A program made the position numbers and the translations under genes. A model generated the notes under the pieces. It ran no database searches, had not been told where the DNA came from, and saw only the letters and a list, made by a program, of their open reading frames with translations. This document shows positions 3,716 through 33,277 of a stretch of DNA of 35,670 nucleotides, piece by piece (the first letter of the stretch is position 1; each line of letters begins with the position of its first letter). Source of the stretch: a virus. The stretch covers positions 1-35,670 of the IMG/VR virus record IMGVR_UViG_3300012005_000027; one strand, 5' to 3'.

Positions 3716-3945
3716 CTAAAAAGCAACATGAAAAGCTAGGTGCTCTAATTGAGCAATATGATGTACTCGAAAAATTTAGGGCGGTGATGGCGGCGCTAGA
3801 CGGTTACGTGGAAGCCATCAAAGTAAAAAATAATCCAAAATTAGGAATGAAGGCCACGCAGCTTTATCTAGCCAAAAGAGAGGCAACGCTGTGTCTAGGT
3901 AAGTTCCTTGGAATTTTAAATGAAGACGGAGAAGTGAAGCAATGA
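3712..3945 (+). CDS. Hypothetical 77-residue helical protein
   Basis: An unrecognised, Lys-rich, mostly helical protein. The start is fixed by the ATGA overlap with the upstream gene and by AAGGAGAAGG just before it; the stop again overlaps the next start (3942-3945). No motif, membrane segment or signal peptide is visible. It lies directly before the GH46 enzyme in the same coupled series. Confidence 0.7.
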   Translation: MTKKQHEKLGALIEQYDVLEKFRAVMAALDGYVEAIKVKNNPKLGMKATQLYLAKREATLCLGKFLGILNEDGEVKQ

Positions 3946-4649
3946 CCCCAACAATCAAAAAGATCCAGCAGATCGTGGCGGTGAATGAAAACGATTCAAC
4001 GACCTTGAACTATGCCTATTGCGAGGATATCGGAGACGGCAGAGGGCCGACCTGCGGTATCGCAGGCTGGAATGACGACTTAGATAAGATCCTTCCGCTT
4101 TATCCTTCACTTGCGCATTACATGAATCAGCGTAGCAATCTCGGAGAACAGTTTGCAAAAGATTGGGCCGCATCGGCTCAGGATCAGGTTTTCAGAGACC
4201 TGCAGGACAAGATTCAATACGATGAGTACTTCGCACCCGCGATTGCTATGGCGGCATCCTATGGAATCGTCACTGAAGCTGGGCAAGCCATTTTCTGCGA
4301 TGCTGCAATTCAGCAAGGCATGGATGGAGATCCAGATTCTTTAAATCTTATGGCAAAGCATGCGCACGATAAAGTTCTCGCTGCGGGAGAAGAAAAAGTA
4401 CCTGCAACTTACGAAGCTAAATATTTGAGCGCGCTTTGCGATATACGACATGGGGTGCTCATGAATCCGTATAATCATAAGACTAAAAAAGATTGGCAAA
4501 AGTCAGTTGATCGCAGCGATGAACTCAAGAAATTTGTTCCTGGATGGTTCGACGCGAACAATGTGGTAAATCAGGGAAACATCGATCTCGTGACGCCATT
4601 CGTTTACAATCCTTGGGGGGATGAACCTGGGTTTACGGTTGCCGGCTAA
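3942..4649 (+). CDS. Chitosanase-like glycoside hydrolase, family GH46 (endolysin candidate)
   Basis: A 235-residue protein, near the size of a catalytic GH46 domain. The N-terminus has VNENDSTT and then AYCEDIGDGRGPTCGIAGW, matching the GH46 signature (AENSS...YIEDIGDGRGYTxGIIGF). Glu16 and Asp32 fall at the positions of the two catalytic acids of Streptomyces chitosanase (Glu22 and Asp40). GH46 enzymes have a lysozyme-like fold and hydrolyse beta-1,4 links next to glucosamine. There is no signal peptide, so the protein would stay in the cytoplasm until the membrane is breached, as an endolysin does. I infer a role in wall lysis, perhaps on partly de-acetylated peptidoglycan; a true chitosan substrate is the alternative. 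Confidence 0.88.
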   Translation: MTPTIKKIQQIVAVNENDSTTLNYAYCEDIGDGRGPTCGIAGWNDDLDKILPLYPSLAHYMNQRSNLGEQFAKDWAASAQDQVFRDLQDKIQYDEYFAPAIAMAASYGIVTEAGQAIFCDAAIQQGMDGDPDSLNLMAKHAHDKVLAAGEEKVPATYEAKYLSALCDIRHGVLMNPYNHKTKKDWQKSVDRSDELKKFVPGWFDANNVVNQGNIDLVTPFVYNPWGDEPGFTVAG

Positions 4650-4718: not shown

Positions 4719-4910
4719 ATGTATGAATTTGAAAACGATAGAACCTTTCATAAAATCGAAAAAGTATTCGTAGCGGTTTCAATTTTTACCGTGGTCTTAA
4801 TGGTTTCATGGAGTGCATTAGTCGATATCGTTGAACGGAAAGACTACCCAATCATAAGTAACCACTGCTATAAGCTTGGCGAAGCTTTGATCTGTAAAAT
4901 TAAGCAATGA
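4719..4910 (+). CDS. 63-residue single-pass membrane protein
   Basis: The ATG follows TTGAGGAGAAATTCGC. Residues about 16-36 form one hydrophobic segment (VFVAVSIFTVVLMVSWSALV) between an acidic/basic N-terminus and a C-terminal domain with two Cys. There is no signal-peptidase site, so it is probably a membrane-anchored protein. It sits between the GH46 enzyme and the Wzy_C-like protein; a holin or an accessory of the O-antigen module are both possible. The stop overlaps the start of the 29-residue peptide (ATGA at 4907-4910). Confidence 0.7.
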   Translation: MYEFENDRTFHKIEKVFVAVSIFTVVLMVSWSALVDIVERKDYPIISNHCYKLGEALICKIKQ

Positions 4911-4996
4911 TGAATTGGGCGATCATAATTCTCATTTCGGCAATCCTTGGCGCTCTTTTGGTCATGTCGATCCTTGCACCTGGGGCGATTCTGTAA
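4907..4996 (+). CDS. 29-residue hydrophobic membrane peptide, possible polymerase inhibitor
   Basis: MMNW followed by almost uninterrupted hydrophobic residues (IIILISAILGALLVMSILAP) gives a single membrane helix with no charged residue. The start is in an ATGA overlap with the preceding gene and the stop is 12 bases before the Wzy_C-like gene. In Pseudomonas phage D3 a 31-residue hydrophobic peptide (Iap) inhibits the host O-antigen polymerase and is encoded with a phage polymerase; the size, hydrophobicity and position here are similar, which is inference only. A small holin is the alternative. Confidence 0.55.
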   Translation: MMNWAIIILISAILGALLVMSILAPGAIL

Positions 4997-5008
4997 TATT
5001 TTTCATTC

Positions 5009-6061
5009 ATGCAATTCAACCCGCTTACGACGATTCTTGATGAAGATTTATGGCGATATGGGATGTTCTTTGGGGTTCTTTTTTGTGTCGCCACAATCAT
5101 TTTCAGCAGATCGAAGCAAATCGGTTGGATTGCATGCACCACTTGGTTCTATGTTTTGTGCTCGGCAATTGCGACAATTGAATATCCTGTCATAAGGTTC
5201 GGAGTGTTCAATACTGGATTCATGGCGACCGCCGGACAAACCGCGCTTGAGGTGCTCGTGATCCCGCTCGCCGTTTTAAGTCTTCCGAGAATCTTGTTTA
5301 ATAAATCAATAGAATGGATGACGTGGCTGATCTTAACTGATCTTATTGCGGTGTGGATTTTCGGAACCGGAATCATGATTGCGCCGAGTTTCGATCTCGC
5401 GTTGATCGCAATGTTTTTACCTTTCGCTCCGATCTGGCTCGTTATCCTATCTGGGGTTACGATCCTGACTCATCATGCGTCGACTGCAGTCATGATCATG
5501 GTCGCGCAATGCATGGTGTTCGCGATGAGTTATAAGCGACTCAGGCCAATAGTTTTCGCGGTTATTCCGGTCGCAATTGCATCCGCATTTTACCATGCCC
5601 GCGGGCCGAACCTGGACGGGAACGAGCGGGTCACGGTGTGGAAAAGCATGATGTCTCATTGGTGGAGAGGAACTTCATTTGTGACGTCAGATAATTTAGT
5701 TTCGCTTCATTTTGGCGGCACGCTTTTAAGTAAGGTAACCGGAGCCGGTGCCGGATCATTCCTTTGGTTAAGCCTCATGTGCGAACCTGCTCACATGTTT
5801 ATGAGTGCCCACTCAGAGATCATTCAGATTACTTTCGAACTTGGTTTCGTGGGACTGTTCCTCGCCCTTGCGACGACGATGTCAGCAGTTAAAAGATGCT
5901 GGGATAGACCTGGCATAGTAGCGGCAGTGATGGGTGTAGTGGCGTGCTCTATGTTTTACCACCCACTTCGGTTCGCCCCGACTGCAATTTTGATCGCATT
6001 CATCTTTAGAGAAGCTTTAGAAAAACAAACGGCCAACGGAAAAACCGTCAGCCGGATGTAA
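5009..6061 (+). CDS. Polytopic membrane protein, O-antigen polymerase/ligase (Wzy_C)-like
   Basis: A 350-residue protein with about nine or ten hydrophobic segments. Three elements match the Wzy_C/WaaL pattern: LTHHAST (153-159), Arg207-x3-Trp211 before a large periplasmic-type loop, and GAGAGSF (245-251) followed by AHSEIIQITFELGFVGL (267-283), corresponding to the family's GxGxGxF...AHNxxLQxxxElGxxGL. Such proteins polymerise O-antigen units or ligate them to lipid A core in the inner membrane. In a phage the likely use is changing the host surface so that further phage cannot adsorb. The start ATG has only a weak upstream site, and it may depend on coupling to the 29-residue gene 12 bases before. 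Length is slightly below bacterial homologues. Confidence 0.75.
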   Translation: MQFNPLTTILDEDLWRYGMFFGVLFCVATIIFSRSKQIGWIACTTWFYVLCSAIATIEYPVIRFGVFNTGFMATAGQTALEVLVIPLAVLSLPRILFNKSIEWMTWLILTDLIAVWIFGTGIMIAPSFDLALIAMFLPFAPIWLVILSGVTILTHHASTAVMIMVAQCMVFAMSYKRLRPIVFAVIPVAIASAFYHARGPNLDGNERVTVWKSMMSHWWRGTSFVTSDNLVSLHFGGTLLSKVTGAGAGSFLWLSLMCEPAHMFMSAHSEIIQITFELGFVGLFLALATTMSAVKRCWDRPGIVAAVMGVVACSMFYHPLRFAPTAILIAFIFREALEKQTANGKTVSRM

Positions 6062-6080: not shown

Positions 6081-6503
6081 TTAGTAATAGAAAATGCTTG
6101 TGTCGTTCTCTCCGGTAATAGCGACCGAACCTTTACCGCGAATCGAGATGCGCATGCCTGCAGCAATCGCCATTGGGTAGAAGGTGTTTGCTGCACTCAA
6201 TGGAATTAAGAATTGACTCACTTCAGAATCCGCGGCGGCACCGTAAGTTGCTACGCCGATCTCCATCGTGTAGGTCGAGGTATCTTGGATCTGTAAGCCC
6301 TTAACGCCTTTTGCGGTGAGGTTAAGGAGAGGCACCCAATGGACTGTCCCTACGCTTCCGGCACCGCCTAAACCGACGCTCGGGCCACTGTTATTGTAAA
6401 CGGTACGGACTGGCACCGATACCGGCGGAGTTGTGTTCGCCATGGCACCAATAGAAATGAGTGAAGTTAAGATCAAAAATGCTGCAAAGATAAAATTTTT
6501 CAT
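6081..6503 (-). CDS. Secreted protein, paralogue of the protein at 31022
   Basis: A 140-residue protein with a clear Sec signal peptide (MKNFIFAAFLILTSLISIGAMA, cleavage near residue 22) and a Gly/Ala/Ser-rich beta mature part. The ATG is preceded by TAGGAGAAC. The region GLQIQDTS...LIP...ISI...TGE aligns with YVQIQNNS...LIP...VSI...TGE of the protein at 31022, and I take the two as paralogues. It is the last gene of the minus-strand virion/lysis block and converges on the Wzy_C-like gene with a 19-base gap. Function unknown: exported to the periplasm or surface, or a virion component that is first exported. Confidence 0.75.
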   Translation of the reverse strand: MKNFIFAAFLILTSLISIGAMANTTPPVSVPVRTVYNNSGPSVGLGGAGSVGTVHWVPLLNLTAKGVKGLQIQDTSTYTMEIGVATYGAAADSEVSQFLIPLSAANTFYPMAIAAGMRISIRGKGSVAITGENDTSIFYY

Positions 6504-6566
6504 AGTTCTCCTAATTGTTATTTACAGAATAGATCATGCACCCACGATAACAAGTTCTTAAAAAGG

Positions 6567-6643
6567 CCATTCCGCCGGATTTGAACCGGATCAATTCACG
6601 GGTCGTCACCGCGTCAAATGCTTTACCGTTAAGCTACGGAATG
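6567..6643 (-). tRNA. tRNA-like element, irregular; anticodon uncertain
   Basis: Read on the minus strand, a 7-base acceptor (CATTCCG with CGGAATG), T8-A9, a D-arm GCTT-AACGGTA-AAGC with conserved A14, GG and A21, and a T-loop TTCAAAT on a CCGG/CCGG stem are present. The T-stem is only 4 pairs and the anticodon arm region is about 6 bases too long. The best 5-7-5 arm (one C:C mismatch) would place GAC (Val) as anticodon, but I do not trust it. CCA is not encoded. Its 5' end overlaps the last codons and stop of the M15 gene. It may be a degenerate tRNA, a structured 3' end or an attachment-site remnant. Confidence 0.5.
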
Positions 6644-7017
6644 AAAACGCGATTACCTGAACCCGGTGCCATGATCTGAAAATGAACCCAGTTCGGCGTA
6701 TGCCCGAAGTCTTCGAACCAGAATCCAATTTTAGCCATCGCATTCATGTTGTTCTTGACCCATTCGGCTAGTTTCTTGTCAGGGTCATAAATGTCCGCAG
6801 CGGCCCCGGCAATGTGTTTTGAATGAACCGCCTTCGTTACACCTTTCGAGATTAGATCCGCTTGCATTTCGTCGGAGCGAAGTCCTGAAGTTACCTGTAT
6901 ATCGAGACCGTACATTTCTTGAACTTCTATTAACCGCTCGAAAAGTATTTGAAGGTTCTTATCAATCGACGGGTTAGTGGGGAAGTGGTGCGGGTTTAAT
7001 TCGGAAATTGTTTTCAT
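6634..7017 (-). CDS. Endolysin, M15 family L,D/D,D-peptidase
   Basis: A 127-residue single-domain enzyme. SGLRS (44-48), SKHIAGAAADI with His68 and Asp75, and WVHFQ with His112 are the zinc ligands and surrounding motifs of peptidase M15 (VanY/D-Ala-D-Ala carboxypeptidase and phage endolysins such as those of T5 type). It would cleave peptide cross-links or stem peptides of peptidoglycan at the end of infection. There is no signal peptide, so release needs a holin; the holin-like protein is encoded just upstream with an ATGA overlap (7014-7017). The stop codon lies inside the tRNA-like element. Confidence 0.93.
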   Translation of the reverse strand: MKTISELNPHHFPTNPSIDKNLQILFERLIEVQEMYGLDIQVTSGLRSDEMQADLISKGVTKAVHSKHIAGAAADIYDPDKKLAEWVKNNMNAMAKIGFWFEDFGHTPNWVHFQIMAPGSGNRVFIP

Positions 7018-11749: not shown

Positions 11750-14440
11750 CTATCTATGCCCAATACATGATATAAAAAATCCACCGTCAGTTGAAGCGAA
11801 ACTAGAGTTAAGCGTGATAAAGTTGATTGACGTTGCAGAGGTAAATGTGAAATCCCCGCATACAGACCCAGTTGAGGAACACGTACACCCTGGGGTAGAG
11901 CTAAACACACCCGGTGTGATATTAAGCGTATAGTTGCCAACAGAGTTTCTGGTAACGCTATTTACCCCTGATTGAGTCGTGATCGTACACGGAGTCGACG
12001 TGCAAGCAGTAGGAGATAATGCGTAGGCTACCGCATCAGCCCCCGCCGAGTTCGAGGTCACGCTTCCTATGCCTACGACTGCCGGAATTCCCTGCCCAGT
12101 TCTGACGATGGAAAAACCAGTTAAATTTACAGTTCCAGTACCACCTGAAATCTGCTCCTGAAGTTTAAAAGTAGGAGTTGTAGACGTGGCAAGATAGTTA
12201 GAACATCCCCCAACCGAGCTGGTCGCGTTAGCATAAGCAATATCGGCTCTCTGCAATCCTACCGCTACAACCGCAGAACTATCAATTAACTTAACCTGTA
12301 CGTTTTGCGGAGTTGCGCTGTCTGCAATGTAACCCGTATAGCAAACTTGATAGTTGTCTAACGCTGGTAGAGTGCAAGAAATTCCAACTAAACTCGATGC
12401 AGCAGTGCAAGTGATACTTTTACTAGGTCCAGCCGTCACTGTACCCGTCACGGATGCAGGATCAACAAAAGATCCAGTCGTTGTCGTCGATCCTGAAAGC
12501 GTTGAGGTTCCAGCCCATGAAGCCGAAACAGTGGCAATGCTCTGCACTTGCTGGGATGAGGATGGTGTGCACCGAATAGACACCCAATACTCTGTATTAG
12601 AAGCATCCAATGTTACGGATACCGATTTTGTAACCGTAATTACATCATTAATCGCTGCCGTGAATGTGACGGGTGTGATGTGTAGTGATTGTGGCGCCGT
12701 AGCTGATTGAGTCCCATAACCCGACCCGATTGTTGTTCCATTTTTCTTTAAAAGAATACTATCTGCAGAAGATGTATTGCTATAAATAGAAGCCGATGCT
12801 GTGCATGTAGATGCTACTTTTACAGTATAAGCGCCAGCAGAGAATCCCCCAACAGTATCCACAATGACGTTAGTGAATGGGAATGTAGTTCCACTTGTGT
12901 ATGCTCCACCAGCGATGTTGTTCGCGTAAGCAAAAGTGTCAGGTGAGTTAGTGCTTCCAATATTCCTAGCCGGGCCAACGTAAGCCGCGCCTATGTTTAC
13001 GGTTCCAGTAGAACTGGAAGCGACCTTAACGTCAATCCCGTTTGCGATTGAAGACGCCGGGTAGTTGATCGGGTAAGAATGATAAGCGCCATCGCTTGAA
13101 ACGGAAACGCATGATGTTGTAATTTCGATTGCGTTTTGAACCGGGCAAACGCTGACTCCGGTAAGCGCGGTCTTTAGAGTGACGTTATATTCCCAATTCC
13201 CTGAGACCTCCATTCCAGTCGGAGGCGTAACCGACTGATTTAAAATAATCCCGCTCTGCGCAGAAAGAGTGAGTTTTAAGCTTTGCTTCGTTCCAGTCAC
13301 GAATGAAGTCGTGTCGGTCGAAGCGGTCGAGTTTGAAACGGTCCAGTTGTCCGATGCGTTTGTGCCTTGGAAATTTTGGTTCCTCAAAATATTTCCGTTT
13401 GCGGTTTCGATTAATCCAGTTCCGGTTCCTGCAGTGGTCAACTGATAGCTCGGAACCTGAACGTTTGAAATAGAGGAATATCCGACATCGCTAACGCCTT
13501 TTGCGTTTAACCCGCCAGACCCAGAACCGCCCACTACATGCCAGCGGGTATCTTGTGAATTGTAGTTTACGATAACGGACGCATCTGTGGTCAGGGTCAA
13601 GTCTGACCCGCTGCCGGTCAATATTCTATTTACGGCAGTCGCCGATGTGTATTCGTTGCGAATGGTGATAGACGCGCCTGTTTTATTGATCAGCGTAATC
13701 ACCTGACCCGTAACCGGGGACGCGATTGAACCAATCGAAGTTAAAGACGCGTTTGTTAAAGCAGTAGTCGGATTGCTCACGGAAAGCGCGACGCTTGCGC
13801 CCGTTGTCGTGCTGTCGGTAGTCTGAGCGAGAAGGAGTGATCCATTAAGTGTTAACGAAGTCCCAACGCTTTGCCCATTGGTGATGCTAAGGCTGTTTAA
13901 GGTGGACGCAGCGGACCCGGTAAACGTAGCCGCTGAAATGGTACCGGCACTAAAATTCCCGCTTGAATCCCTTTTAACGATTGTGCTCGCAGTGTTTAAA
14001 TTGGTCGCGGTATTCGCTAGAACCGTAGCTGTCGCAACGCTACCGGAAGATTGTCCTCCGACAAGCGCGACGGTCGCGACTTGAGATCCGAAACCGGGGC
14101 CAGCGAGAACGTCACCTGTGAGCTGATTTATTGCGGCGTTTGAAACTTTCGTTTCGTTACCGGAAGAGTCTTCTATGTAAAAATTATTATCGCTTTTGAA
14201 ATACGATTTATTGTACCCGGAAGCAGGATCGGAAGGCGTCGTGATCTGCTTGTTAATACTCTCCTTATTCCACGTGATCGTGAAAGGTTCGGTGTCGTTG
14301 GCATTTTTAAACAAGAATGCATTGTTTGTAATAGTTGAGTTAACTTGTTGTCCATTAACGACGCCGCCGGTCGCAAATGCATTTATTGGTAAAACAAAAA
14401 GAAGTAAGCTTGCAATTATTTGTCTCATAAAGTTTCTCAT
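11750..14440 (-). CDS. Tail-fibre-like protein with N-terminal signal peptide (896 residues)
   Basis: A long Ser/Thr/Gly/Ala-rich, beta-structured protein. The first residues, MRNFMRQIIASLLLFVLPINAFA, form a clear Sec signal peptide with cleavage after about residue 23, unusual for a virion protein. A segment near residues 250-300 (IRNEYTSATAVNRILTGSGS...DTRWHVVGG) is of a type common in phage fibres. The C-terminus is Cys-containing (STPGCTCSSTGSVCGDF), which could form disulphides if exported. The gene starts in an ATGA overlap with the upstream tail gene, which supports the ATG at 14440; ATG 14428 is also possible. It lies in the tail operon, so I call it a fibre or decoration protein, not a host protein. 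Confidence 0.75.
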   Translation of the reverse strand: MRNFMRQIIASLLLFVLPINAFATGGVVNGQQVNSTITNNAFLFKNANDTEPFTITWNKESINKQITTPSDPASGYNKSYFKSDNNFYIEDSSGNETKVSNAAINQLTGDVLAGPGFGSQVATVALVGGQSSGSVATATVLANTATNLNTASTIVKRDSSGNFSAGTISAATFTGSAASTLNSLSITNGQSVGTSLTLNGSLLLAQTTDSTTTGASVALSVSNPTTALTNASLTSIGSIASPVTGQVITLINKTGASITIRNEYTSATAVNRILTGSGSDLTLTTDASVIVNYNSQDTRWHVVGGSGSGGLNAKGVSDVGYSSISNVQVPSYQLTTAGTGTGLIETANGNILRNQNFQGTNASDNWTVSNSTASTDTTSFVTGTKQSLKLTLSAQSGIILNQSVTPPTGMEVSGNWEYNVTLKTALTGVSVCPVQNAIEITTSCVSVSSDGAYHSYPINYPASSIANGIDVKVASSSTGTVNIGAAYVGPARNIGSTNSPDTFAYANNIAGGAYTSGTTFPFTNVIVDTVGGFSAGAYTVKVASTCTASASIYSNTSSADSILLKKNGTTIGSGYGTQSATAPQSLHITPVTFTAAINDVITVTKSVSVTLDASNTEYWVSIRCTPSSSQQVQSIATVSASWAGTSTLSGSTTTTGSFVDPASVTGTVTAGPSKSITCTAASSLVGISCTLPALDNYQVCYTGYIADSATPQNVQVKLIDSSAVVAVGLQRADIAYANATSSVGGCSNYLATSTTPTFKLQEQISGGTGTVNLTGFSIVRTGQGIPAVVGIGSVTSNSAGADAVAYALSPTACTSTPCTITTQSGVNSVTRNSVGNYTLNITPGVFSSTPGCTCSSTGSVCGDFTFTSATSINFITLNSSFASTDGGFFISCIGHR

Positions 14441-28926: not shown

Positions 28927-29248
28927 TCGCCGAACCCCATTCAGTTTTATACACTATGTTCTTCTTATCGGTGATCGAAACGTCGCTTATGATTTTTTCA
29001 GTCTGCTCTAAGTACTGCTTGCCGAGCCAGATTAGCATCGCGACATTACCTTTTTTCGCTGACTCAAGCTGCCATCTTCGCAGGGACATTTTGAGGCTCT
29101 CACGTCCTTTGGTCAATTCTTCCATGAAACGCCTATTTAAAAGCTCGTCTGTGGTGCCAAGAAGTCTTGCTATCTCGGTGGTCTTACATCCTACGGAGGC
29201 TAGGTCTTGAACCTGTTTAGCGTCGATTACTTTTTTAGGTCTAGCCAT
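28883..29248 (-). CDS. terS: Terminase small subunit
   Basis: A 121-residue protein directly upstream of and overlapping terL. The first half is an HTH (KQVQDLASVGCKTTEIARLLGT), as in TerS DNA-binding domains, followed by a helical segment (KMSLRRWQLESAKKGNVAML) and an acidic tail. TerS recognises the packaging site and regulates TerL. Start ATG follows CAGGAGTAAAA and overlaps the end of the Dam gene. Confidence 0.9.
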   Translation of the reverse strand: MARPKKVIDAKQVQDLASVGCKTTEIARLLGTTDELLNRRFMEELTKGRESLKMSLRRWQLESAKKGNVAMLIWLGKQYLEQTEKIISDVSITDKKNIVYKTEWGSANEAIEDDSATDDKP

Positions 29249-30158
29249 TTTTACTCCTGTCCATCACTGAATTATATCCTGCCTTATTAACGTAAACCTT
29301 TTCCCACTTCACTAATCTAGCCTCTTTTGATGACGACAATAAAGAACGCTTCTCCATATTGTAAATGCACTTAAACCTATCGTCGTTGATGTTGTATTCA
29401 GAAATAAATACAGGCTGTTTAATGCTATCGGCCCAGTCTAAAAACTTTGCGGTATTGAAGCTTGATCCGTAGTCGGCAGTACCGCTATAAGGAGGATCGC
29501 AGTAGATGACAGAGTTTTCTTTTATCGGTACGTTTTCATAGCTCAGATTATAAAATTGGAGCCGTTCGAGCCGTTCGAGCCGTTCGAGCCGTTGGAGCCG
29601 TTCGAGCCGTTGGAGCTGTTCGAACTGTTGGATATCAAGCCTTGTGTCTCTCTTAGATATGAACTTAATCCTGTTTTTCAGCCACAGTCTTTTCTCTAGG
29701 ACAGAATATCCTTCTTTGAAGTTATCGATGCCGAAAATTTTCTTAGAGTAATCATCAAACTCATTAAAGATGATAGCATTGTGGACCGATTTTTTAAATG
29801 GTTCAATGTCTTTTCCGAAGAGATAGGCCTCTCCATTGTTGCCGAATGACCAGATTAGTTTAACGTAGGGATCGGATTCTTTTAAATTAAAGAAGTCTTC
29901 GCGTGAAATCCATGCCGGTTTATAGACGTTGTAATTATATTTTCCGGCAATAGCATCTTTTACCAGCTCGCAAACGCCTGGCCTAAGTTCATTGAAGTGA
30001 AACTGTTTATAGTGCTTTGACCTATGCTTAAGCATGAAGTGAGTGATGCTAAATCCGCCTCCGAAAACGTCGTAAAAGTTATCGGATTTTGGAAACAGTC
30101 TGCAAACTTGCTCGCATATTTTAGACTTGCTCCCCATGTAAGGAATGCCATAGTTCAT
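29241..30158 (-). CDS. dam: DNA adenine N6-methyltransferase (Dam type)
   Basis: A 305-residue class D12 methyltransferase: YMGSK (7-11), DVFGGGFS (30-37, the SAM-binding motif I) and the catalytic DPPY (221-224). It transfers methyl from SAM to adenine, probably protecting phage DNA or regulating its packaging. Residues about 181-201, just before DPPY, are a run of LQRLERL units encoded by a 9-base tandem repeat. The recognition sequence cannot be told from the protein. ATGA overlap with the ParB-like gene and overlap with terS make a four-gene coupled packaging block. Confidence 0.93.
   Translation of the reverse strand: MNYGIPYMGSKSKICEQVCRLFPKSDNFYDVFGGGFSITHFMLKHRSKHYKQFHFNELRPGVCELVKDAIAGKYNYNVYKPAWISREDFFNLKESDPYVKLIWSFGNNGEAYLFGKDIEPFKKSVHNAIIFNEFDDYSKKIFGIDNFKEGYSVLEKRLWLKNRIKFISKRDTRLDIQQFEQLQRLERLQRLERLERLERLQFYNLSYENVPIKENSVIYCDPPYSGTADYGSSFNTAKFLDWADSIKQPVFISEYNINDDRFKCIYNMEKRSLLSSSKEARLVKWEKVYVNKAGYNSVMDRSKNG
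29558..29629 (-). repeat. 9-base tandem repeat array in the Dam gene (8 copies)
   Basis: About eight copies of a 9-base unit (plus strand GAGCCGTTC or GAGCCGTTG with small variations). Each encodes three residues (xRL), so expansions and contractions change protein length without frameshift. The array lies in the target-recognition side of the methyltransferase, before DPPY. Confidence 0.92.
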
Positions 30159-31021: not shown

Positions 31022-31417
31022 ATGAAATCATTTTTTCTATGCATCGCCATGTTCATCGGAGGCGCGGCACACGCCGAGATTCTTTTGGGCAAAACTCCGA
31101 TTTACGCGGTGAACTATAATTTTTCGACTGGTAACGTATCGAGCGCGGCTTTCACTCAAATCGTGAGTAGCTTGCCGTCATCGATCTCTTATGTGCAGAT
31201 CCAGAATAACTCGGGTCAGATTTTAAAGATTGCTACTGGCGCGGCTGGAAGTGAGTCGGTAATCCCGTATCTCATTCCTAGAGGCGGCACCGCTTACGGC
31301 GGCGCTACCAGTGAGCTGTATTTTACAATGCGCGCGTTTCAACGTGTAAGCATTCAAGCTGCGCTCTCGACCGGAACGGCGACGACAGGCGAGCTTATCT
31401 TAAACTTTTTCCAATAA
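31022..31417 (+). CDS. Secreted protein, paralogue of the protein at 6081
   Basis: A 131-residue protein with signal peptide MKSFFLCIAMFIGGAAHA (cleavage after about residue 18) and a beta-rich mature part (PIYAVNYNFSTGNVSS, YVQIQNNSGQILKIATGA). Start ATG follows GATGAGGGTAAATCT. Its mature part resembles that of the protein at 6081 in order and spacing of motifs (QIQ, LIP, SI, TGE). It opens a plus-strand cassette of envelope-directed genes. Function unknown; exported, and possibly virion- or surface-associated. Confidence 0.75.
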   Translation: MKSFFLCIAMFIGGAAHAEILLGKTPIYAVNYNFSTGNVSSAAFTQIVSSLPSSISYVQIQNNSGQILKIATGAAGSESVIPYLIPRGGTAYGGATSELYFTMRAFQRVSIQAALSTGTATTGELILNFFQ

Positions 31418-31770: not shown

Positions 31771-32159
31771 TGGGCATACTGCCTCCTGCTGCTGAGAAAT
31801 ATGACTTTACTGGAATAGGAAATGCAAGTGCTGCCGTCATTATGGCGCTCCTTCTTGCTAATCCATACACATCTTTTCTGACGGTAGGTCTTCTCGGTAA
31901 AATCAATTTCAAAATTATATCTTGGCTTTGCTCTTCCGCTGCATCAGTCGGGCTGGTTTTCCTAAACGTCGGTGCAGAGCAAATTGTAACCGCAGTAGAT
32001 AAAGTTGGGTTCGATGGATCGTTTGACAATGCGTTCAAGCTGATCGATCAAATTAATTCTACCGGCCACAGTCTTACTCCTGCGCAAGTTGCCGCAATCG
32101 ACGCGCCAGTGATTGCTCAATTCGAAAAGTTCGCGAAACTTACGAGGACAAAATCATGA
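31770..32159 (+). CDS. Two-segment membrane protein, holin-like candidate
   Basis: A 129-residue protein with two hydrophobic stretches (about residues 19-43 and 50-72) and a soluble helical C-terminus (DKVGFDGSFDNAFKLID and onward). Start chosen at ATG 31770, overlapping the upstream stop, over a longer frame to 31677. No holin family is recognised with certainty. With the 42-residue gene before it and the lipoprotein gene after it, it could be the membrane part of a lysis or exclusion module. Confidence 0.65.
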   Translation: MGILPPAAEKYDFTGIGNASAAVIMALLLANPYTSFLTVGLLGKINFKIISWLCSSAASVGLVFLNVGAEQIVTAVDKVGFDGSFDNAFKLIDQINSTGHSLTPAQVAAIDAPVIAQFEKFAKLTRTKS

Positions 32160-32494
32160 ATAAGAAAACTCTTATCATTTTCCTAAGTATTTTCTTATTT
32201 ACTGGATGTGCGAGCGTTCATATTCCTGACTTCAAGGCCTACGTCACTCTTCCGGCCTCCGGTGATGGGTATTGGGTGCAAACCGTTTCGACAGGCGAGG
32301 GCCGTATTCCTAAAGCAACTTGGGACGTTCAAAAGAAACGAGGTATTGTCCTTTTTTCTGAGGATTGGTCGATTCTTCGAAACACAGTCCTAAAAAACTG
32401 CCTCATGAATTCCTGCAAAGATACGGTTGGGATGTTTGATTCTCTTTTCTCTACCCTTGATTCTGCACTTAAAGAAGCGACCCCAACTCCCTAA
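32156..32494 (+). CDS. Predicted outer-membrane lipoprotein
   Basis: A 112-residue protein with lipobox LFTGC (Cys17) after MNKKTLIIFLSIFLF; residue +2 is Ala, not Asp, so outer-membrane sorting is expected in a Gram-negative host. The mature part has two further Cys (CLMNSC). Start overlaps the preceding stop (ATGA). It may be an o-spanin-like or a surface-exclusion lipoprotein; it is longer than Rz1 and not Pro-rich until its TPTP end. Its stop overlaps that of the convergent gene by 3 bases. Confidence 0.75.
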   Translation: MNKKTLIIFLSIFLFTGCASVHIPDFKAYVTLPASGDGYWVQTVSTGEGRIPKATWDVQKKRGIVLFSEDWSILRNTVLKNCLMNSCKDTVGMFDSLFSTLDSALKEATPTP

Positions 32495-32761: not shown

Positions 32762-33277
32762 TCAATTGCTGATTTTTACATAGGTATTGCTGTATCCAAG
32801 AGGAGCGCTTCTGTATCCAATTTGAGCCGTGTTCTGTCCTGCTTGTTTAATAAAGTAAAACGTCCTCACGTTAGTCTGGTATGGCTGTGCGAATGCGTGA
32901 CACTCGGTTGTGTCGATTCCGTAATCAAACACCCATGATGGGATGGAGCTATTATTTTGCTCCCATGAATCCCCGGCGTAGCTGATCACGGTTTTACATT
33001 TCGTAGAGGTCATTTTACATCCGCTGAAGGTGAGCTGATCGGTCGGGTCCGTTGTGTTTGCCCAGGTTCCGGTAGCCGGGTTCGGAGCGCAATTTCCACC
33101 GTAGGACGCTCCTGATGCTGGATAGAATGCGGTTGGGTTTAACGTGCTGGTTTGTGCGAGCACCGGAGCTGCCATTGGATCGACATAAGCCGAACTTTCG
33201 GCCAAGCCCGGTATGGATGGGGTTTGAGCGCCGCAAGCGGTGAGGAGTAAGGTTAAAACTAAGATTGCCTTGTTCAT
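32762..33277 (-). CDS. Predicted outer-membrane lipoprotein (171 residues)
   Basis: MNKAILVLTLLLTAC is a lipoprotein signal with lipobox LTAC (Cys15) and Gly at +2. I chose ATG 33277 over an upstream start because this begins the signal peptide. The mature part is Pro/Ala/Thr-rich and then has several Cys (CKMTSTKCKTV and DTTECHAF), suggesting disulphides in the periplasm or at the surface. A 14-base perfect palindrome sits immediately before the start. Phage lipoproteins of this kind (for example T5 Llp) can block receptors, but I see no homology to them. Confidence 0.75.
   Translation of the reverse strand: MNKAILVLTLLLTACGAQTPSIPGLAESSAYVDPMAAPVLAQTSTLNPTAFYPASGASYGGNCAPNPATGTWANTTDPTDQLTFSGCKMTSTKCKTVISYAGDSWEQNNSSIPSWVFDYGIDTTECHAFAQPYQTNVRTFYFIKQAGQNTAQIGYRSAPLGYSNTYVKISN

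Follow-up and report, generated by a model that had tools for sequence, protein, structure and literature searches.

Phage Wzy_C-type membrane proteins encoded beside export-signal proteins: candidates for the glycosylation of virion or surface proteins

A viral gene for a polytopic Wzy_C-like membrane protein, preceded by two small hydrophobic open reading frames (ORFs), raises the question of what its product acts on: does it switch the O-antigen of the host, as the initial annotation proposed by analogy with Pseudomonas phage D3, in which a short inhibitor of the host polymerase (Iap) is paired with a phage polymerase, or does it serve another acceptor? The window, that is the whole stretch of DNA analysed, comes from IMG/VR as a virus record, is 35,670 bases long and has no terminal repeats. 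Its genes include those for a large terminase, portal, major head protein, Mu-F-like protein, ERF, RusA, D12 methyltransferase and ParB-like protein, and no integrase was found among the window ORFs scanned. Relatives of the window phage, sought via terminase and capsid, amounted to a weak match and short fragments only. At the left end, the last + strand genes encode a GH46 hydrolase, the 63-aa and 29-aa products with one TM each, and the 350-aa polytopic protein; directly beyond them, in convergent orientation, come the gene of a 140-aa signal-peptide protein, a tRNA-Val gene, that of an M15 peptidase and then the late operon. The three ORFs between 4719 and 6061 all exist as initially described:

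3942..4649, + strand: GH46 (chitosanase/lysozyme-like) hydrolase (PF01374, E 1.2e-30), upstream of the small ORFs and on the same strand
4719..4910, + strand: 63-aa single-TM protein with a good Shine-Dalgarno (GAGGAG) and two Cys in its C-terminal tail
4907..4996, + strand: 29-aa hydrophobic ORF overlapping the stop of the 63-aa gene (ATGA)
5009..6061, + strand: 350-aa polytopic putative glycan transferase of the Wzy_C superfamily (9 predicted TM; leave-one-out profile, AF2 model and Foldseek)
6081..6503, - strand: 140-aa protein with a predicted Sec signal peptide (rule and adjacency); its gene directly adjoins the Wzy_C gene and converges with it
6634..7017, - strand: M15 peptidase (PF08291, E 5.1e-7) in the convergent late operon, probably its endolysin

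The GH46 product has no predicted signal peptide, and its gene (3942-4649) had no match in the phage collection. The tRNA-Val (GAC) lies at 6565-6643, between the endolysin and the exported-type 140-aa gene. Elsewhere in the window, the D12-type DNA methyltransferase gene (29241-30158), which adjoins the ParB-like gene, contains an internal LQRLERLQRLERLERLERLQ repeat that is possibly length-variable, and two predicted lipoproteins (..LFTGC and ..LLTAC) are encoded in the right-hand region at 32156-32494 and 32762-33277.

Relatives of the 350-aa gene were recruited with degenerate DNA patterns from its H..Q..E.G..G stretch, which gave 12 viral loci and then 37; both patterns combined yielded 39 loci of an unannotated phage family, all picked through one motif. 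Every recovered locus encodes a Wzy_C-type protein, the complete ones being mostly 310-460 aa long. The first alignment had 13 members; each matched PF04932 at E ≤ 0.1 (best 9.9e-14) and none matched PglL_A (PF15864), for which reason the 350-aa protein is not filed as PglL; the family had no match in PHROGs. The relatives derive from environmental viromes, and in most of them the Wzy_C gene is placed among late structural genes, for example in the head protein/adaptor or fibre-gene interval, within structural operons that look varied from one relative to another. A pair of distinct Wzy_C genes is present on each of two viral contigs (L026/L030 on one contig, and L039).

The 350-aa protein itself is almost certainly a member of the Wzy_C (PF04932) superfamily, and on this point profile and fold both back the initial annotation. 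The pattern residues that it had quoted are present (R207-x3-W211, GAGAGSF at 245-251 and AHSEIIQITFELG at 267-279). The quoted residues are no chance resemblance: across the 37 aligned relatives R207, W211, G245, G247, H268, Q273, E277 and G279 are invariant or at least 90% conserved (loop residues R207 at least 90%, H268 invariant), the H, Q, E and G279 being fixed by the search pattern and R207, W211, G245 and G247 being free of it. The direct PF04932 score of the protein (13.2 bits) lies below the 31.7 cut-off; we rejected the view that such a score means no Wzy_C, as D3 Wzy-beta also falls under the cut-off (25.4 bits). In the six-frame window the only two Wzy_C matches both fall, collinearly, inside the 350-aa ORF, and in a leave-one-out search the profile of the 36 other relatives found this ORF as its sole match among 4,079 ORFs (E 1.9e-17). 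The closest relative, L010/L022, aligns to the protein over 371 residues (23%, E 4e-8 in a small database), and its contig exceeds the PF04932 cut-off with 33.1 bits. No match to the protein was found by tblastn against phages, by 8-mers in viral and species genomes, among PDB sequences or in PHROGs. AlphaFold (AF2) was unusable on the single sequence (pLDDT 44.5) and needed the 37-sequence alignment, with which it gave pLDDT 72.5 and pTM 0.70, model confidence being low in the N-terminal part (about residues 1-85). In the Foldseek search of the PDB, WaaL (7tpg) ranked first (prob 1.00, E 2.3e-3; next match prob 0.12) at a low global TM-score of 0.36, and a BFVD fold search gave no convincing match.

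The context of the family, with its late structural operons and adjacent exported phage proteins, points elsewhere than to O-antigen switching. Sec signal peptides were called by one fixed, simple home-made rule (not SignalP), which produces some false positives and, in its test set, also accepted the 63-aa membrane protein. Near-duplicate loci were removed before the adjacency count, leaving 35, and 21 of these 35 non-redundant Wzy_C loci have an immediate neighbour with a predicted Sec signal peptide; within-locus permutation gave a mean of 7.35 and reached 21 in 0 of 20,000 draws, and the baseline in random viral contigs was 22/274 (8%). The exported-type neighbours share the strand of the Wzy_C gene in every such locus except the window, and many overlap it or leave a gap of less than 40 nt. 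Furthermore, of the 273 ORFs lying no more than 4 kb from Wzy_C, 50 had a predicted signal peptide; 29 random viral contigs gave 13 of 287, and several of these 13 calls were plainly false or cellular-looking. When ORFs of the same contigs were compared (the window and 15 Wzy_C contigs covered in full or almost in full), signal peptides were predicted for 25/133 near ORFs and 52/608 far ones (Fisher p 0.0014). The mature neighbours are also Ser/Thr-rich (median 24% vs 14%, p 1.5e-7), as fibre-like proteins often are anyway. Several loci have homologous exported-type proteins in common, and in tblastn of these proteins against isolates homologues were found only for the LLPN-type fibre. In two Wzy_C phages, a 121-aa protein without a signal peptide (L093:17060-17425) is 76% identical to one with a signal peptide (L097:9494-9916), a pair in which predicted export has been gained or lost.

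Besides the 140-aa protein, the window encodes two further proteins of the exported type:

11750..14440, - strand: 896-aa tail-fibre-like protein with a predicted Sec signal peptide (29% S+T), encoded within the tail operon and close to the likely tape measure gene
31022..31417, + strand: 131-aa protein with a predicted signal peptide, of a size like the exported-type Wzy_C neighbours in relatives

The start of the 896-aa protein, which begins MRNFMRQIIASLLLFVLPINAFA, is fixed by an ATGA overlap with the upstream gene; the protein had no family match and is labelled a fibre because of its position and composition. Additionally, fibres picked by a Collar or S74 domain, blind to the protein start, carry a predicted signal peptide in 7/7 cases in Wzy_C contigs and 0/4 in random contigs, these small counts leaving out one further match that is a fragment at a contig end. 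The LLPN-type fibres of Rhodoferax phage P26218, spring phage ctfPj964 and Pseudomonas phage PAE2 start MATLLP, VATLLP or MTQLLP, which is the mature point of their exported-type homologues, and have no signal peptide; in Wzy_C phages the homologous fibre sequence is preceded by a signal peptide ending ..ALAQ-TASLLP. No Wzy_C was found in the PAE2, P26218 and ctfPj964 records. Since tailed phages assemble in the cytoplasm, signal peptides ahead of tail-fibre sequences have no ordinary explanation.

The reading that we favour, with a probability of about 0.42 and hardly ahead of an O-antigen polymerase or ligase, takes the 350-aa protein for an oligosaccharyltransferase of the phage, with exported virion or surface proteins as its acceptors. 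Members of the superfamily take a polyprenyl-linked glycan at the outer face of the inner membrane, their acceptors being another lipid-linked glycan (Wzy), lipid A-core (WaaL) or protein (PglL, PilO), and these are rarely separable by sequence alone. Going by the family, the 350-aa protein would work at this face of the host inner membrane with a host undecaprenyl-linked glycan as donor. Its acceptors would be virion or surface proteins of the phage itself that are exported and rich in Ser/Thr, most likely not LPS, as for a PglL/PilO-like O-oligosaccharyltransferase, and exported fibres or decoration-like proteins might receive their glycan in the periplasm and come together with the particles once the cell lyses. 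The usual position of Wzy_C beside export-signal phage genes suggests, without proving it, that these phages coat their own particle proteins with sugar and do not switch the host O-antigen. An oligosaccharyltransferase is favoured because PglL genes show a pattern like the one described here, 21/31 of them adjoining pilin-type targets; PilO is also found without the PglL_A motif (PMC3643930). In the window itself two features count against this reading, as the exported-type neighbour lies on the strand opposite to the Wzy_C gene, and the 350-aa gene closes a + strand operon outside the late operon. It also counts against it that a fibre sent to the periplasm cannot reach the virions until the cell lyses and that, to our knowledge, all phage Wzy_C proteins of known function are O-antigen polymerases.

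The gene is recast from a presumed copy of D3 seroconversion into a member of a PHROG-less phage family linked by gene order to export-signal proteins. Should Wzy_C and the exported proteins prove to be connected, phages would possess a pathway outside the cytoplasm that glycosylates virion or surface proteins. We put forward only tentatively, and with more doubt than the reading of the single gene, that many uncultivated tailed phages send surface proteins such as tail fibres and small decoration-like proteins through Sec to the periplasm, where a Wzy_C-type oligosaccharyltransferase of their own glycosylates them, part of virion maturation then taking place outside the cytoplasm and being finished at lysis. 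In the literature covered by our search no report of exported virion proteins or of a phage oligosaccharyltransferase turned up, which does not prove that none exists.

A serious competitor, itself somewhat short of an even chance, is a phage polymerase or ligase (Wzy- or WaaL-like) of the O-antigen or another surface polysaccharide. Host surface glycan would then be relinked or capped, so that infected cells and debris stop binding phage, and the exported phage proteins would act separately or would also coat the cell surface. Membership of the superfamily of D3 Wzy-beta, WaaL as the nearest solved fold and the phage precedents (D3 and VarioGold, with wzy near the lysis genes) all agree with such an enzyme; however, it leaves unexplained the operon-level link to exported phage proteins and the signal peptides of fibres, and the examined tail proteins of D3 and VarioGold have no signal peptide. 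In this regard, a motif that characterises some members of the family was found in 7 distinct viral contigs but in none of 84,980 bacterial and archaeal species genomes, which speaks against this alternative too: it suggests phages that rarely lysogenise, and so weakens a role in seroconversion or lysogenic conversion.

A further alternative is that Wzy_C genes and exported virion-like proteins occur together simply because a single phage lineage or set of hosts is rich in both, with no joint function. The origin of the relatives in environmental viromes and the homologous exported proteins common to several loci would fit such hitch-hiking, but gene adjacency, the near/far test inside the same contigs and the varied structural operons around Wzy_C make it improbable.

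The remaining alternative is the D3-like module of inhibitor and polymerase, the part of the initial interpretation that found no support. Translational coupling is evident only for the 63-aa/29-aa pair, from its ATGA overlap; the 350-aa start, 12 nt after the 29-aa stop, has no Shine-Dalgarno, and coupling at this point would have to rest on ribosomes that end the 29-aa ORF and may re-initiate, so that the small ORF would need no inhibitor role. The 63-aa ORF would then be a small membrane protein and the 29-aa ORF possibly a coupling ORF only, not an Iap-like inhibitor. Shuffling of the interval yields an ORF of 29 aa or more in 45% of cases and one of 63 aa or more in 2.8%, which makes the 29-aa peptide insecure by length alone. 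As an Iap analogue the 29-mer was rejected, because its length is one that arises by chance and its score against Iap (25.0) was equalled by 242 of 1000 self-shuffles, a similarity not beyond composition. No comparable membrane peptide precedes the Wzy_C gene in the relatives inspected. The 63-aa protein had no relatives and no Pfam or significant PHROG match; as a holin it was rejected, since next to the M15 peptidase the late operon already has a small TM gene that matches a holin weakly. The layout in D3 differs as well: the 31-aa iap and wzy-beta are non-adjacent, with oac between them (PMC9658991), and this oac sits on the other strand. The profile of the 350-aa protein's family missed D3 Wzy-beta and VarioGold Wzy, both in the target set; hhalign aligned D3 Wzy-beta to the family over the R..HN region (E 2.3e-4, prob 45). 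Small hydrophobic ORFs ahead of the 350-aa gene recall a switching module in which the 29-aa peptide inhibits host Wzy and the 350-aa protein substitutes for it, but Iap similarity at shuffle level, a chance ORF length, relatives lacking such a peptide and the non-adjacent genes of D3 itself make this very unlikely.

Among known systems, D3 Wzy-beta with Iap resembles the locus in having a phage-borne Wzy_C protein of similar size and, in the same region, a gene for a short hydrophobic peptide; it differs in the oac gene between iap and wzy, in being missed by the family profile and in examined tail proteins without signal peptides. VG_p25 of the Variovorax phage VarioGold is an O-antigen ligase-family gene likewise convergent with a lysis cluster and with small TM proteins nearby, whereas its product is a D3-type protein (31% identity), missed by the profile of the 350-aa family, in a phage whose examined tail proteins have no signal peptide. 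WaaL (7tpg)/PF04932 shares the polytopic membrane architecture, the R...W and H..Q..E.G..G region and the best fold match (prob 1.00), although the TM-score is only 0.36, the N-terminal part is poorly modelled and the 350-aa gene is phage-encoded, outside an LPS locus. PglL/PilO differ in the PglL_A model, unmatched here, and in that the neighbours in the 350-aa family are phage proteins and not pilins; they are alike in superfamily and in gene order, the family genes adjoining genes for exported-type proteins (21/35) as PglL genes do (21/31).
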